64,000 nt of DNA from Acidimicrobiaceae bacterium (GTDB lineage Bacteria; Actinomycetota; Acidimicrobiia; Acidimicrobiales; RAAP-2). Numbering within the stretch: the stretch's first letter is position 1; every line of letters starts with the position of its first letter. This document shows, in pieces, positions 1 through 6,514 of the stretch. The notes under the pieces were generated by a model. It saw only the letters and a program-made list of their open reading frames with translations. It did no database searches and was not told the DNA's origin. Made by a program: the position numbers and the translations under genes. The DNA is taken from assembly GCA_947455165.1 (NCBI GenBank), contig CANGMP010000002.1, positions 1 to 64,000 on the forward strand. Reading direction: 5' to 3'.

Positions 1-1946
1 CGGTAGGCGGCGAGGACTGGGTCAGTGGCGTCAAAGGCGTACAGCTTGACCGAACCGTCGTAGGCGTCAATGACAACCTTGACCGAGTTGCGAACGTAGT
101 TGTAGTTGCCCGTGAGGCTGCCCGTCGGTGCACCATCTTGAGAGTTGGCCCCTTCGCTGTAGGGGTAAAGGCTCGAGGTGGTGTAACCGTCGAGAACGAA
201 GTTCACGCGTCCATTCGCCAACACGGCGTAGGGTGCGCTGTCAAAGGTAAGGAACGGTGCAGCCTTCTTCGCCATGTTGAGTACGTCGCGCTCAAAGAGC
301 ATCCGACTCTTGGTCGTGATCTGATTCGAAATCCAGAGATTCAAATCTTGGAATCGCAGAGCAAAGGCACTGCGACGCAAGAAACTGCTCATCTCGACGC
401 CACCAGTACCGGCGTAGTTCGAGGCCACGGGCGTTCCGGCCTGCGTCTTGTAGTCAAGTTCCTTTTGCTTGGTGTTGGCCACTACCCAGCCCGGGTCGTC
501 GATACCGAAGTAGACCCCGGGAGTCGTAAGGAGCGGTGTGCCGTTCGACGACGTCGGCGGCACGTTCTGGACCGCAAAGGTCGGGTTGCCGGTCGCCGAG
601 TCAAAAGTGTTGGCCGGCGAGACCACCATGCCGTAACCGTGGGTGTATTCGAGGTGCTGGTTGACCCAACTGCGAGCCGGAAGGTTGTTCTGGTTGAGCT
701 GGCGGGCGCCCACAAGCACCGGCGTCACTTTGCCGTCGAGGACGTAGCGGTCGACAGCGAGCGACGTGAAGGTGTAGTACGACTGGATGGCCTGGCGGCG
801 CTGCACCGTCTCGAGGGCAATGTTTGGCGACGGGTCCCAGAGGCGAACGTTATTGAGCGTGGCGGCGCTGGACTGCAAATCAGCCGGAGTGATTGACGTG
901 GCTCCGGCGAAGCTTTCGCGCTGAACCGTATCGATGCCGTAGGCCGCACGCGTGGCTTCGATATTGCGCTTGATGTAGGCAGACTCGAGCGAGACCTCGG
1001 CCGGCTTGACCTTGAACGTCTGAATGACCTTGGGGTAGATGACGCCAATGGTGAGTGAAACAAAGACCCACAACACGGCGGCCAGCACGGGCAGCGACCA
1101 ACCCTGACGCAGGACGTTGCCGAGCAGAAGCGCGGCAACGGCCAACGAGATCCAGAACATGATCGTCAATGCGGGCATCCGGGCGTGGATGTCGGCGTAC
1201 GTGGCACCCTGGACGTATCCGTTGGACTGCGTGACGAGCGTGTAGCGAGCGAGCAAGTAGTCAATGGCCTTAAAGATTGCGACCGAGGCCAGCAGGACAC
1301 TGAGGTGAATCTTCACTTGCGGGCTAACGCGAGGAGATACGCGCGCGGCCCGAATCCCACCGTTGAGGTAGTGAAAGAACGTCGTGATGAGTGTGATCAC
1401 CACCATGGACATCAGGGCCCACGTCACCACGAAGTGCAGAAAACTCAATCGGAAAATGTAGAAGCCAATGTTCTTATGAAAGACCGGGTCGACGCCGGGG
1501 AAGCTTTGGGCATGAGCAAAGAGGATGTAGTTCTGCCACTGAGGAACGGCGCTCAAACCGGCAACGAGCCCAACGACCAATGCCACGAGCGCGTAGAGAC
1601 GGCGGGCGAAGGGACGAATGAGCGTTTGAAACCAACGAACGAGTTCGTCCTCGGGCTCAAAGGTCAGATCGCGGGAGGCAAACCGCGTGGCGAGCAACAA
1701 GTTGCCCCAGAGCACCACGAAGAACGACGCCCCAAACACAACGGCGAGCCCCACTTTGACCGTAAGGAGACCAGTGAAGACGGAGCCCTGGCTGATTGAG
1801 TCGAACCAGAGCGAGTCGGTCCACAGCACGGCGACACTTCGCAGTGAGGTCAGCAGGATGAAGAGAACGGCAATGATGAGCACCGTTATCCCGCGACGGC
1901 GGGTAATGGGACTCTTGAAGGAAGCTAAATCATCAGGGCTACGCAC
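1..1946 (-). CDS. UPF0182 family large integral membrane protein (C terminus cut by window edge)
   Basis: This gene is absent from the ORF track because its stop lies beyond base 1. Translating the minus strand from a GTG at 1946 gives an open frame of about 648 codons to the window edge. An in-frame TAG four codons upstream fixes the start region. The N-terminal half has several hydrophobic segments (for example ITVLIIAVLFILLTSLRSVAVL) separated by basic loops. The second half is a large soluble domain ending in YAFDATDPVLAAYR, which resembles the conserved UPF0182 pattern of aspartates and tyrosines. UPF0182 proteins usually have 900-1000 residues, so about a third is missing. Their function is unknown. 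The nearby PDZ/Lon gene is, to my recollection, also a UPF0182 neighbour in mycobacteria, which supports the family call. Confidence 0.85.
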   Translation of the reverse strand, partial: MRSPDDLASFKSPITRRRGITVLIIAVLFILLTSLRSVAVLWTDSLWFDSISQGSVFTGLLTVKVGLAVVFGASFFVVLWGNLLLATRFASRDLTFEPEDELVRWFQTLIRPFARRLYALVALVVGLVAGLSAVPQWQNYILFAHAQSFPGVDPVFHKNIGFYIFRLSFLHFVVTWALMSMVVITLITTFFHYLNGGIRAARVSPRVSPQVKIHLSVLLASVAIFKAIDYLLARYTLVTQSNGYVQGATYADIHARMPALTIMFWISLAVAALLLGNVLRQGWSLPVLAAVLWVFVSLTIGVIYPKVIQTFKVKPAEVSLESAYIKRNIEATRAAYGIDTVQRESFAGATSITPADLQSSAATLNNVRLWDPSPNIALETVQRRQAIQSYYTFTSLAVDRYVLDGKVTPVLVGARQLNQNNLPARSWVNQHLEYTHGYGMVVSPANTFDSATGNPTFAVQNVPPTSSNGTPLLTTPGVYFGIDDPGWVVANTKQKELDYKTQAGTPVASNYAGTGGVEMSSFLRRSAFALRFQDLNLWISNQITTKSRMLFERDVLNMAKKAAPFLTFDSAPYAVLANGRVNFVLDGYTTSSLYPYSEGANSQDGAPTGSLTGNYNYVRNSVKVVIDAYDGSVKLYAFDATDPVLAAY

Positions 1947-1965: not shown

Positions 1966-3693
1966 CTACGCCGGAACGACCGCGCAGCTACAACCAGCGT
2001 GCAGCGGCGGGTGAGGCTGGCCGCTGGGGAAGTTTTGGCCGGCCGGGTGAATACCCGAGTTGGCGTCCAACGTGCAGGCGTCACAAGGGGTATCGCTGGG
2101 CGAAACGAGGACTCGCACGTTGCCACCGGTGCAGGCGTTCACGACACCGACATTGAAGGCTCGGCGAGCAATATCGCCACAGAGGCGCTCGACTCGGGCG
2201 CCTCGCCACTCTTTGTAGGCGGCATTGGCCCGCTCGGCACCGTCGTCGCTGCCGTCGGCCTGAACGCGCTTGCGCAGCGCCAGCGCCAGCGTGATGGCCA
2301 AGTCGGTGGCACATTCGTCGACTGCACTCGTTGCGTTCAGCGATCCTTCGGTGCCGGTGATCTGGTTGGAAAACGCCACACCAGCTTGCGCGGCTGCGCG
2401 AATCGTTTCTAGGGACGCGGCGACGTAGCGGCTGCGCTGGTCGGCCTCATCTTCCATCTGATCGGTGATTTGACCCTTGAGTCCGCGAAGACGATCAATC
2501 ATGACGTTCTGATCGTCCTGGAGGGCACGCTTGACGTGGCGAACGAGTTCGCTGAGGTGGGGCGCCAGCGACTCTTCACGACGAAGGAAGACTTCGTCGT
2601 CGGGCGTCACGGGCGTCGTACGTTCCTTCGGCGCCCGCTTCGGCGCGGCCGGTTCGCGGCCCTTCTCCTCTTGCGTAGAGGCGCGAATGCGAGCGAATAT
2701 TTCCCCGACCACGTCACTGGCGGGAGCAGCGTCGCCGGGTCCTTCTGACGCTTCGGGAGCGGTGGCAGTTACTTCGGTTGAAGCGGTCGCCTTACGTGGC
2801 TTGACGGCCGTGGGGTCAACGGCAGGTAGCCGCAAGGGTGCTGACGATTCGGTTGACGCCAAGTCGTCGGGGGTCACGGTGGCCGGTTCGGGGACGACCC
2901 GAAGGGGCACGCCGCGCAGCAACTCTTCTTCCGTCGGCTCGGGCGAGGTTGGGCGGGAGCGCAGTGCCTCAATCGCCGCCGCTCGAGCACCTTCGTCTGA
3001 ACTCATCAGACCACCAAGGACTTGGTCGACCGATTCGCGCACCGAACTAACGGAGGCCGTGAGGACGTCACGAGCTGCGCGCAACTGTTCGATCTGTACG
3101 TTGAGCGCTTTGCGCTTGATCATGAGATCGTTCAGGACGGCGCGACGCGCCTCGTTGGCCTGCTCGATGATGGCCCGACCCTGTTCGCGGGCCCGCTCAA
3201 TCAGCGCCTCTCCGTTGATGCGAGCCGAGTCTTCGAGGCGCTGCGCGGCGGCGCGAGCCTCCTCGTCCTTGTGCTGAGACTGGACCTCGGCGTCGTTGAC
3301 AATTGCCAAAGCACGTGCTTGCGCTTCGACGATGTAGTTCGTCGCACGCTCTTGGGCCTGCGTGAAGATCTGAGTAGCGCGCTCCTGGCCTTCCGCAGTT
3401 ACGCGACCAGCTTCATCATGCGCGGCCCGCAAGATAGCGGCCGACTGTGCGCCGAGGGCAGCCGCGAGCTGCGATTCGTCCAGCACGGGATTATCGGCAC
3501 GGTGGAGTGCATCTGAAAGCTTGGCCTGCATGTCCTGCAGTCGCTTTTCCATGAGCGCAATTTCGCGGCCCACGCCGTCGAGGTAACTCCGTACTTCTTC
3601 GGGGTCAAAACCTTTGCGAACCGTCCGAAAGCTGGCGTTGGTGACGTCAGCGCCCGAGTGGCGATTCGGGGACAGTATTCGGCGGTCGTCCAT
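1966..3693 (-). CDS. DivIVA-domain coiled-coil protein with a phage Mu gpF-like C-terminal domain
   Basis: The protein has 575 residues. Residues 14-50 (DVTNASFRTVRKGFDPEEVR) match the DivIVA N-terminal motif that reads membrane curvature at poles and septa. A long Ala/Glu/Arg/Gln-rich coiled coil follows to about residue 225, then a Pro/Thr/Glu-rich linker to about 350 and another helical region. The last 90 residues are unexpected: RVERLCGDIARRAFNVGVV, then CDACTLD, a FPSGQPHPPLHAGCSC stretch and a hydrophobic end. That order of an arginine-rich helix, CxxC, PPLHxxCxC and VVP resembles the C terminus of Mu gpF/SPP1 gp7 head-morphogenesis proteins, probably a small metal-binding fold. The protein is likely a polar or septal scaffold; the role of the tail is unknown. 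It lies between UPF0182 and the PDZ/Lon protease on the same strand. Confidence 0.8.
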   Translation of the reverse strand: MDDRRILSPNRHSGADVTNASFRTVRKGFDPEEVRSYLDGVGREIALMEKRLQDMQAKLSDALHRADNPVLDESQLAAALGAQSAAILRAAHDEAGRVTAEGQERATQIFTQAQERATNYIVEAQARALAIVNDAEVQSQHKDEEARAAAQRLEDSARINGEALIERAREQGRAIIEQANEARRAVLNDLMIKRKALNVQIEQLRAARDVLTASVSSVRESVDQVLGGLMSSDEGARAAAIEALRSRPTSPEPTEEELLRGVPLRVVPEPATVTPDDLASTESSAPLRLPAVDPTAVKPRKATASTEVTATAPEASEGPGDAAPASDVVGEIFARIRASTQEEKGREPAAPKRAPKERTTPVTPDDEVFLRREESLAPHLSELVRHVKRALQDDQNVMIDRLRGLKGQITDQMEDEADQRSRYVAASLETIRAAAQAGVAFSNQITGTEGSLNATSAVDECATDLAITLALALRKRVQADGSDDGAERANAAYKEWRGARVERLCGDIARRAFNVGVVNACTGGNVRVLVSPSDTPCDACTLDANSGIHPAGQNFPSGQPHPPLHAGCSCAVVPA

Positions 3694-3720: not shown

Positions 3721-4842
3721 CTAAAAATTTGGTTTCGTATAGGGCACGGGGGGCTGGCCACCTAGACGACGAAGTTCGCGGAGCACCTGCGCGAGCTTCG
3801 TGGCACCAATGACCGCCAACTTGCCATGGGCCGCCGCTCGTGCTTGGTAAGCCTGATTAGCGGGGACGATGAAAATCGCTGCCCCGGCCGTTATCGCCGC
3901 CGCCGTCTTTTGCTCAATGCCACCAATATCGCCGACAGTTCCATTCGTCGCAATTTCGCCAGTAACGGCAACCTTCTTGCCGCCCGACAGGCTGCCCTCA
4001 CTCAGGCGATCAATGAGCGCCAACGTCATAGCCAGACCGGCCGACGGCCCGCCGATGTACTGAGTATTGATAGTGATGGTCGCGGGAAAGTTGTACGAGA
4101 CTCCGTCACTCAGCGAAACGCCGATCCACGACTTGGCAATCGTCGTGATACCGGGGCAGTCCGAAACCGCAACGTCTCGTGGCGTCTTTTTTGTACTGAT
4201 CTTGAGCATCGTGGGTTCGGCGTACGTGATGACTCCGGCGTCGCTCACCTTGGCCTTCTCAATACCCACCTGCACGGTGCTCGCTGGGGCCACGTCGTGC
4301 AGGGCCGCAATGGCGTCACAGGAGTTGGCGATTGGCGAACCATTGATACTCACGATGCGATCGGCAATACGTAGACCGGCCTTGCGGGCGGCACTGCCTA
4401 CGGTGAAGTCAGTCGTGACCGCACCAGTGGGCTGGGGCGTTAGTGACCACCCGAGGGCGCGGAATGCATTCAGCTCAGCGTTGTCTTTCGAGTTCTGCAT
4501 GTCGAGATAGCTCTGGCGGTCAAAGTCGGCGAAGGAACTGCCCTTGGAAACCAGATCGCTCAGTAGCACGGTGTTTGTAGCGCCCCGGACTTGAGCCCAG
4601 AACTGTGAGAGGGCCGTCATCTGTCGCAGGGCCACGTCGACCATCATGAAACCGGACTTCTTCGTGGTGGCCTGCGGGTCGGTCGGAACACCGCTCACCT
4701 TGATCATGGGACTCAAGGGCGATGCCTGGCCCGGAAGAATTTCGTACGTCGAGACGTGCACTCGGTTCAGACCAAACAGCATGAGTGCGATGACCGTGAT
4801 CACGATGACGAGCCGACGACGTACTACTGGCAATGACTTCAA
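3721..4842 (-). CDS. Membrane-anchored PDZ / Lon-type (S16) serine protease
   Basis: The 373-residue protein has a single N-terminal transmembrane anchor (about 9-29, LVIVITVIALMLFGLNRV), which places the rest outside the membrane. A PDZ domain around 135-205 contains AARKAGLRIADRIVSINGSP. The C-terminal Lon proteolytic domain (about 240-350) carries the catalytic serine in GGPSAGLAMTL and the catalytic lysine in GGIEQKTAAA. No AAA+ module is present, as in the YlbL/Rv3194c-type actinobacterial proteases. It probably processes envelope proteins. The gene is followed at a 27-base gap by the DivIVA-gpF gene and then by UPF0182, so the three may be co-transcribed. Confidence 0.92.
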   Translation of the reverse strand: MKSLPVVRRRLVIVITVIALMLFGLNRVHVSTYEILPGQASPLSPMIKVSGVPTDPQATTKKSGFMMVDVALRQMTALSQFWAQVRGATNTVLLSDLVSKGSSFADFDRQSYLDMQNSKDNAELNAFRALGWSLTPQPTGAVTTDFTVGSAARKAGLRIADRIVSINGSPIANSCDAIAALHDVAPASTVQVGIEKAKVSDAGVITYAEPTMLKISTKKTPRDVAVSDCPGITTIAKSWIGVSLSDGVSYNFPATITINTQYIGGPSAGLAMTLALIDRLSEGSLSGGKKVAVTGEIATNGTVGDIGGIEQKTAAAITAGAAIFIVPANQAYQARAAAHGKLAVIGATKLAQVLRELRRLGGQPPVPYTKPNF

Positions 4843-4880
4843 AACCGCACTCCCGTGACAACGCAGGTGAGAATAGAGCT

Positions 4881-5513
4881 ATGGAGCTCAACGACGCCAC
4901 GCTACCCGAGGACGTGGTGCAGTCACTTGTCCGCGCCGCCTTCTCTCAGGACGAGGCCGACACGAGCCTGCTCACAAGCGCCCTGACATCCCTCGCGCCT
5001 CGGGCCCGCGTCTTGGCCCTGCGCGGTCTGGCTCGTCAGCGACGCCTCACCGACGAACACCTGGGACGGGCACTCAGCGACGATGCTGACGAAGTCGTTC
5101 ACGAAGCGCTGGCCCTGTTGGCCCGCGAGAGCGAACTCGGCCAGGGCCTCACCGGACAACTACTGGAACTCCTGGGCCATGCCAATCCCCTCGTCGTCGA
5201 GGCGGCAATCTTCGCCGCCGGTGAGCGGGAACTGGCCGAAGCCCTCGAGCCCCTGATTGACCTGGTTCTCACGCACGACGACGCCCGCTGTCGTGAATCG
5301 GGCGTCGTTGCGCTCGGTCAACTGGCTGTCGACGAAGCGAAGCCGGCGATTCTCTCGGCCATGAAGGACAAGCCCACTGTTCGCCGTCGAGCCGTCGTGG
5401 CATTGGCCTCGTTTGAGGGTGACGACATTGAGGCGGCGCTCGACGAGGCCAGTGAGGATCGGGACTGGCAGGTCCGCTCGGCCGTCGAGCAACTCCGCCG
5501 GGACGAGGACTAG
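4881..5513 (+). CDS. HEAT-repeat protein
   Basis: The track starts this frame at 4833, but that would overlap the divergent protease start. The ATG at 4881 (MELNDATLPEDVVQ) is preferred and gives 210 residues. The protein is a chain of roughly 30-residue helical repeats, seen in APRARVLALRGLARQ, EVVHEALALLARES, LVVEAAIFAAGE, CRESGVVALGQLA and VRRRAVVALASFEGD. These match HEAT/PBS-lyase-type repeats, which form protein-binding solenoids. No catalytic motif or signal peptide is visible, so a cytoplasmic adaptor is the likely role. Its stop overlaps the stop of the convergent MreB-like gene by four bases. Confidence 0.75.
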   Translation: MELNDATLPEDVVQSLVRAAFSQDEADTSLLTSALTSLAPRARVLALRGLARQRRLTDEHLGRALSDDADEVVHEALALLARESELGQGLTGQLLELLGHANPLVVEAAIFAAGERELAEALEPLIDLVLTHDDARCRESGVVALGQLAVDEAKPAILSAMKDKPTVRRRAVVALASFEGDDIEAALDEASEDRDWQVRSAVEQLRRDED

Positions 5514-6514
5514 GCGTCCACTTTTCGCAGTGCGCGATGGAGTGAACCCATGTCGTTCAAGCAGCGAACCAGGCCCCGAATGACGGCCAGTTCGGGTTGA
5601 TCAACCACGTGGCACGACACCCCGACTTCGCGGGCCAACAGATCAGCGAAGTCTTCGAGCCGGGCCAGTCCCCCGACGAGACTGAGACCGCGAACTGAAA
5701 CGTCGTGGGCCAGGTCTGGCGGGGCCTCACCGAGACACTCCTTCACGCTGCGCACAATGGCCCGAATGTTGTCGTTCACGGCGGCCTCGATGATGTCACC
5801 GGGGACCTCCACGTTGACCGGTAGTCCACGGTCGACGGTGCGGGCTGGCACCACTCGTACTTCACGACGACGAGAACCAAGCGGCGAAGCGAGTTCCATC
5901 TTGAGCGACTCGGCCACGTGCGGGGCGACGACAACGCCGTAGCGGTGGCGCAGCGCGACCGCAATTGCATCGTCGAGATGGGTGCCGCCAATGCGAACTG
6001 AACGCGACGTGACGATGCCGCCGAGCGACATGATGGCCGTCTCGCTGGCTCCGCCACCCACCATCACAATTGGCGCAGCCACGGGCTCTTCCACGCTCAG
6101 TCCGGCGCCGATGGCGGCGGCAATTGGTGTCTCAATGAGCGTCGCTTCGGTGGCCCCGGCCTGCAGGGCCGCTTGGCGGAGGGCACGGCGCTCAATCGAG
6201 GTCGCGAGGGCCGGCACACTCATCGTGGCGTGAATACGTGAGAACCGTCCAAATCCAGCCCGGTCGAACATGGCTCGCAGCAGTCGAGCCGCTACGTCAA
6301 AGTCAACGGTGGTTCCATTGGCTAGTGGACGAAAGTTCACCACGTGTCGCGGGTCACGGGCGACGGTGCGCCACGCACCGTTACCGACGTCAACGATGTC
6401 CCCGGTGTGTGTATCGACGGCAACCACGCTGGTTTCGGAGAGAAAAACCGAGCCGTCGGCCGTGGCGAGGCGAGTCGCCGAAGTTCCTACGTCGAGTGCT
6501 ACGTGCAAGGCCAC
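5510..6514 (-). CDS. MreB-like actin homologue (divergent)
   Basis: The 334 residues fit the MreB/Mbl length. The phosphate-1 loop is DVGTSATR instead of the usual DLGTANT. It is followed by VRPL-like NFRPLANGTTVDFDVAARLL, a phosphate-2 region MVGGGASETAIMSLGGI, RIGGTHLDDAI, the helix HVAESLKMELASP and an adenosine region GLSLVGGLARL. All of these align in order with MreB. The deviations (DVGTS, LVGGLA instead of LTGGGA) suggest a paralogue or an MreB-like protein with altered polymer properties. No MreC/MreD genes are adjacent, unlike canonical mreBCD. The likely role is a cytoskeletal filament at the membrane. It is divergent from the HtrA-like gene. Confidence 0.85.
   Translation of the reverse strand: MALHVALDVGTSATRLATADGSVFLSETSVVAVDTHTGDIVDVGNGAWRTVARDPRHVVNFRPLANGTTVDFDVAARLLRAMFDRAGFGRFSRIHATMSVPALATSIERRALRQAALQAGATEATLIETPIAAAIGAGLSVEEPVAAPIVMVGGGASETAIMSLGGIVTSRSVRIGGTHLDDAIAVALRHRYGVVVAPHVAESLKMELASPLGSRRREVRVVPARTVDRGLPVNVEVPGDIIEAAVNDNIRAIVRSVKECLGEAPPDLAHDVSVRGLSLVGGLARLEDFADLLAREVGVSCHVVDQPELAVIRGLVRCLNDMGSLHRALRKVDA

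Follow-up and report, generated by a model that had tools for sequence, protein, structure and literature searches.

We asked whether a DivIVA-type coiled-coil protein encoded near the start of a 64,000-nucleotide stretch of DNA from an Acidimicrobiaceae bacterium (contig CANGMP010000002.1, positions 1 to 64,000; hereafter the window) ends in a domain of phage descent and, if so, what such a domain would do in the cell. The initial annotation, made from sequence alone, had compared the C-terminal motifs of this protein to the minor head proteins Mu gpF and SPP1 gp7, and had suggested a domesticated phage module anchoring at the pole or septum.

Architecture of the fusion protein and homology of its C-terminal domain to phage MuF

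The gene (1966..3693, minus strand) is a single uninterrupted ORF of 575 aa, about twice the usual length of a DivIVA protein, and homologous ORFs are present in 52 loci. An assembly or frameshift artefact was ruled out, as the one-ORF architecture recurs in many genomes. The N-terminal DivIVA domain (residues 14-67; 3493..3654, minus strand) carries the conserved F22..RKGFD..EV..L motif, with F22, G28, V34, and L38 invariant across 21 homologues, and Pfam DivIVA matched the window protein at residues 15-131 with 33.3 bits (cut-off 28). We modeled the full-length protein with AlphaFold using 21 sequences. In the model, the DivIVA-type head consists of helices 14-19 and 31-67 and is followed by a long coiled coil (residues 73-246; 2956..3477, minus strand) predicted as one continuous helix of 174 residues with pLDDT mostly 83-95. 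The linker (residues 247-363; 2605..2955, minus strand) is disordered, with pLDDT mostly below 55, except for a short helix at residues 328-343 (VVGEIFARIRAS, pLDDT ∼75). A compact domain extends from residue 364 to the end. It comprises a helical part (residues 364-520; 2134..2604, minus strand), with a near-invariant KRALQDDQN..R on its first helix, and a putative metal-binding knuckle (residues 525-575; 1969..2121, minus strand) with the pattern C537xxC540 ... FPSG ... HPPxH565xGC568xC570. The translated ORF ends in RVERLCGDIARRAFNVGVV...CDACTLD...HPPLHAGCSCAVVPA. Hence, the description as a DivIVA-type coiled-coil protein with gpF-like C-terminal motifs was correct, as judged by the ORF and the Pfam DivIVA match. 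The proposed domain size of about 90 residues from residue 480 was not, since the homologous domain starts near residue 364 and spans ∼210 aa; the proposed edge at 2245 lies two bases off the codon edge, residues 483-575 corresponding to window positions 1966-2247 with the stop codon counted.

This C-terminal domain of ∼210 aa is a true homologue of phage MuF (Mu gpF/SPP1 gp7), as supported by PHROG, Pfam, hhalign, and the predicted fold. The window protein alone did not reach Phage_Mu_F (PF04233) in a single-sequence Pfam scan, and the link was therefore drawn only with relatives and profiles; a single-sequence NCBIfam scan likewise gave no MuF match at the C terminus, and the last 108 aa alone produced a modest match to the C terminus of phrog_2662, a phage portal protein profile (E 2.1e-4). 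All 26 relatives matched phrog_2662 (best 8.4e-15), and 13 of the 26 matched PF04233 (best 3.5e-5). Searching IMG/VR contigs with a profile of the cellular proteins identified the portal-MuF proteins L137 (8.7e-17) and L138 (6.4e-11), and hhalign between the cellular and the viral portal-MuF alignments gave 98.9% with an E value of 2.7e-17. When the full-length profile was used, hhalign picked out only residues 485-575, the end of the protein. The hhalign and PHROG alignments take in the helices preceding the cysteine motif.

The AlphaFold model of the MuF domain (pLDDT 93.9, pTM 0.90) is a bundle with four long helices. It had 49 viral structural matches at E ≤ 0.001 with a query TM of up to 0.77, and nearly all of the named ones are head-morphogenesis, minor-capsid, portal, or MuF-like proteins. 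Comparing the model and profiles with gpF/gp7 had been put forward as a check by the initial annotation; it came out for MuF, and the resemblance held as true homology. Foldseek against the PDB returned nothing at E ≤ 0.001, so no solved MuF structure was matched, and when solved structures were searched by profile, only noise was returned (ribosomal S19 and ZorA). A tblastn search of GenBank phages with the domain of a relative found no match; the related viral proteins come from IMG/VR contigs. Searching genome contigs with a single relative as query yielded few MAG matches. The last 87 aa have one homologue each in 54 of 61 related genomes (36 of the 40 good ones), and nearly all of these homologues form the end of a long ORF (∼500-900 aa); this recurrence argues that the C terminus did not arise by chance.

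The closest known systems each have some features in common with the protein and differ in others. The domain shares with the phage MuF superfamily (PF04233; Mu gpF, SPP1 gp7, and portal-MuF fusions such as phrog_2662) a bundle of helices closed by a beta-knuckle that carries CxxC and HPPxHxGCxC, as well as profile, fold, and tree relationship; the window protein has this knuckle after its helices. Unlike phage MuF, the cellular domain lies outside phages and prophages without a portal or terminase in the surrounding loci, is acidic and vertically inherited, and sits C-terminal to DivIVA and a coiled coil. The protein has the N-terminal F..RKGFD..EV..L motif and long coiled coil of the DivIVA/Wag31 family (PF05103) but differs in its doubled length, its MuF C terminus, and its place between a YlbL-like protease and UPF0182. 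MuF polymorphic toxins of temperate phages (PMC5576092) also contain a MuF domain, theirs being N-terminal with a toxin at the C-terminal end, whereas here MuF is at the C-terminal end. Pfam detected no toxin domain in the fusion protein, which ends with the knuckle in a non-phage context and thus does not qualify as such a toxin. The DivIVA-MuF fusion was not described in the open-access literature that we searched; subscription papers and database annotations were outside the scope of this search. A paper on DivIVA motifs covers acidimicrobial DivIVA without mentioning phage domains (PMC9858780).

Genomic neighbourhood and descent

The fusion gene lies between a gene for a YlbL-like PDZ-Lon protease (3721..4842, minus strand; Pfam Lon_C 43.1 bits, PDZ_2 30.9 bits), 27 bp upstream, and a gene for a UPF0182 membrane protein (3..1946, minus strand; Pfam UPF0182 655.8 bits), which starts 19 bp downstream and whose 3' end is cut by the window edge. 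The protease has the GGPSAGL serine and the EQK lysine of the Lon dyad. Because the three genes are on the same strand with such short gaps, they likely form one operon, although this is inferred. The UPF0182 ORF adjoins the fusion gene directly downstream on the same strand in 52 of 52 loci; PDZ-Lon has the same upstream position in related loci, and PDZ-Lon, HEAT-repeat, and Hsp70-like genes lie on that other side in many loci whose sequence extends there. Among the genomes of the class Acidimicrobiia lacking UPF0182, 17 of 19 also lack the MuF domain; the two exceptions with MuF and without UPF0182 are a contig end (G095) and a 78% complete genome (G331). The initial annotation regarded a head-morphogenesis fold on a polarity scaffold beside UPF0182 and a PDZ/Lon protease as unusual. 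The neighbours were confirmed, but as a real and fixed partnership that is not peculiar to the window. YlbL and UPF0182 are adjacent without an intervening fusion gene in several families and in many Actinomycetota, showing that the YlbL/UPF0182 module can work without it.

The loci examined contain no portal or terminase gene among the UPF0182, PDZ-Lon, HEAT, and Hsp70-like neighbours, and thus lack the phage or prophage neighbourhood of a head-morphogenesis protein. Recent prophage insertion was ruled out by synteny and the tree. In one survey, 96% of the MuF genes on bacterial chromosomes were linked to intact or remnant prophages (PMC5576092). The fusion gene is also not located in the division cluster after ftsZ/sepF, a place held by a canonical DivIVA of 257 aa in the same genome (L175:6061-6834, after FtsZ and SepF); the fusion protein is therefore a specialised second DivIVA. 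As side observations, window positions 4833-6514 and the equivalent regions in many loci encode a HEAT-repeat protein, on the opposite strand, and an Hsp70/MreB-like ATPase; throughout the order, both genes are conserved next to PDZ-Lon. In addition, a gene beside the canonical DivIVA (L175:6901-8010) encodes a 369-aa protein that by eye has a lysine/alanine-rich, histone-like N terminus and a DksA/TraR-like C-terminal zinc finger.

Of the 296 genomes sampled from the class, 206 contain the MuF domain (165 of the 209 good ones), nearly always as a single copy, and 18 genomes outside the class have it too; the fusion thus occurs across Acidimicrobiia, where the initial annotation had proposed to look for it, and in other Actinomycetota families. 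Within a sister class, all 8 genomes of two families have the domain and none of 16 from a third. Most of the outside-class examples examined have the DivIVA N terminus. L118 is partial, and in family f102 (L107:3220-4935 and L109:4495-6000) the coil and MuF are present with no recognisable DivIVA head. Nearly all families were recovered as single groups in the MuF tree, which shared 18 of 47 splits with the UPF0182 tree (0.2 expected by chance; Mantel 0.51). All cellular MuF domains formed one clade apart from all viral ones (support 98/95). These data establish single-copy, vertical inheritance in a fixed place between the YlbL-like protease and UPF0182. We consider it very likely that MuF was fused and domesticated, and a single capture followed by vertical descent fits the tree and synteny data. 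An ancestral actinobacterium would have captured the MuF domain of a tailed-phage portal or minor-head protein, which would have been fused to a second copy of DivIVA. We did not infer a root for the MuF tree; the direction from phage to cell is instead deduced from how widely MuF occurs among phages (PMC5576092) and how narrow its range is in cells. Synteny, the congruence of the trees, and purifying selection all support the term domesticated, already used in the initial annotation. Separately, most of the strongly streamlined f43 genomes of ∼1.1 Mb retain UPF0182, which in L164 has PDZ-Lon as its neighbour, but lack a DivIVA-MuF gene, and two f43 genomes tested had no DivIVA match.

Constraint on the MuF domain and its losses

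Median dN/dS within the genus was 0.14 (0.139) for the knuckle, 0.20 for the MuF helices, 0.16 for the DivIVA head, 0.17 for the coil, and 0.36 for the linker, the highest value in the protein. The knuckle is hence under purifying selection as strong as that on the DivIVA part. In the 45 aligned rows that keep the knuckle, C568 and C570 are present in all 45, C540 in 42, H565 in 41, and C537 in 35. On the first MuF helix K388, R389, and R403 are near-invariant and Q395 occurs in 46 of the 52 rows. Every one of the 26 cellular members aligned has a net acidic MuF domain (-2 to -14).

The ORFs of L119 (3021-4724), L170, L171, and L174 terminate directly behind the fourth MuF helix, so that they lack the knuckle and keep the rest. 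These losses, in several families, are probably independent. L158 (G047:C1 about 1100000) encodes a 333-aa DivIVA-only protein between PDZ-Lon and UPF0182 that has lost MuF entirely and keeps the motif of the short linker helix (ALFARIRADS) at its C terminus. As the gene stays in place in lineages that lost the knuckle or MuF, the knuckle is not always needed.

Possible roles of the fusion protein

In our proposal, the DivIVA head would sit on curved membrane at the poles or septum and the 174-residue helix would project the MuF domain into the cytoplasm. By analogy to gp7, which docks on the portal, MuF would be a protein-docking module that may recruit or organise two proteins there, the membrane protein UPF0182 and the division-linked protease. 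The MuF protein gp7 of SPP1 binds the portal strongly and is thereby carried into the procapsid (PMC6316719), and a MuF domain can therefore act as a docking domain. YlbL (DdcP) of Bacillus subtilis, a checkpoint-recovery protease, promotes the recovery of division by clearing the division inhibitor YneA (PMC6051672). Its PDZ and Lon architecture is the same as that of the upstream neighbour; the resemblance concerns only this neighbour and not the fusion protein, and to our knowledge there is no DivIVA-MuF in Bacillus. We favour a scaffold docking the UPF0182/YlbL module because of gp7 docking, the YlbL precedent, and the co-absence of UPF0182 and MuF. The localisation, the partner, and the metal are inferred, and the docking role in service of this module remains tentative, with the balance tipping slightly against it. 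Anchoring at the pole or septum, as the initial annotation suggested, likewise remains an inference without localisation evidence. The explanation as a whole, an ancient domesticated MuF serving as docking head on a pole or septum scaffold, could as readily prove wrong as right, there being no experiment on localisation or partner.

Several other explanations can be weighed against this one. The C terminus could be an ordinary zinc ribbon that converged on the CxxC/GCxC motifs without any link to phages. The missing Pfam hit at the C terminus of the window protein alone and the empty Foldseek search against the PDB at E ≤ 0.001 speak for it. However, the similarity is not confined to the cysteine motif but includes the helices before it, and three profile methods as well as the fold give it significant support, which all but excludes this explanation; what would have refuted the initial annotation, namely no similarity to gpF/gp7 or a fold shared only with zinc ribbons, was not encountered. 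Alternatively, MuF could retain gp7-like DNA binding and tie the chromosome to the poles or septum, in the manner of RacA or ParB with DivIVA. SPP1 gp7 has been described as a DNA-binding protein (title of a reference cited in PMC6316719), and a near-invariant lysine and arginine lie on MuF helix 1. Tethering of the chromosome through DivIVA is known in other Gram-positives. Yet DNA tethering is unlikely because the MuF domain is acidic in all aligned cellular members; moreover, the fixed neighbours encode membrane proteins, not segregation genes.

The homology to portal-associated MuF would also be compatible with a phage sensor or decoy, in which MuF still binds portals and the scaffold traps procapsids at the membrane, or poisons them, as they assemble. 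We consider this very unlikely for a core gene that is nearly universal, present in one copy, inherited vertically, and part of a housekeeping operon; the PADLOC matches, confined to the N-terminal coil, were weak and of coil type, and dN/dS gave no sign of rapid or arms-race evolution at the knuckle. It remains possible, though unlikely, that MuF is mainly a structural relic that stably caps the coil at its C terminus or helps it to oligomerise, without a specific partner. The repeated loss of the knuckle, and of the whole domain in L158, with the gene retained is consistent with such a relic, whereas invariant C568/C570, the near-invariant KR, Q, and R, and the low knuckle dN/dS argue for a metal site or a specific surface.

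A bolder version of the docking proposal is that the MuF head docks on a cellular portal-like ring at the pole or septum, either an oligomeric membrane assembly of UPF0182 or another ring-forming envelope channel. We regard this as unlikely; if true, Actinomycetota would have turned phage portal docking into part of a conserved machine of the cell envelope. Most of one bacterial class, together with some other lineages, carries MuF as part of an ancient core gene for a cell scaffold. UPF0182 gains a fixed partner; for this widespread membrane family, the open-access literature searched holds no functional study. If the proposed role holds, the fusion would clearly exemplify how cell polarity or division can recruit a phage capsid-assembly domain.
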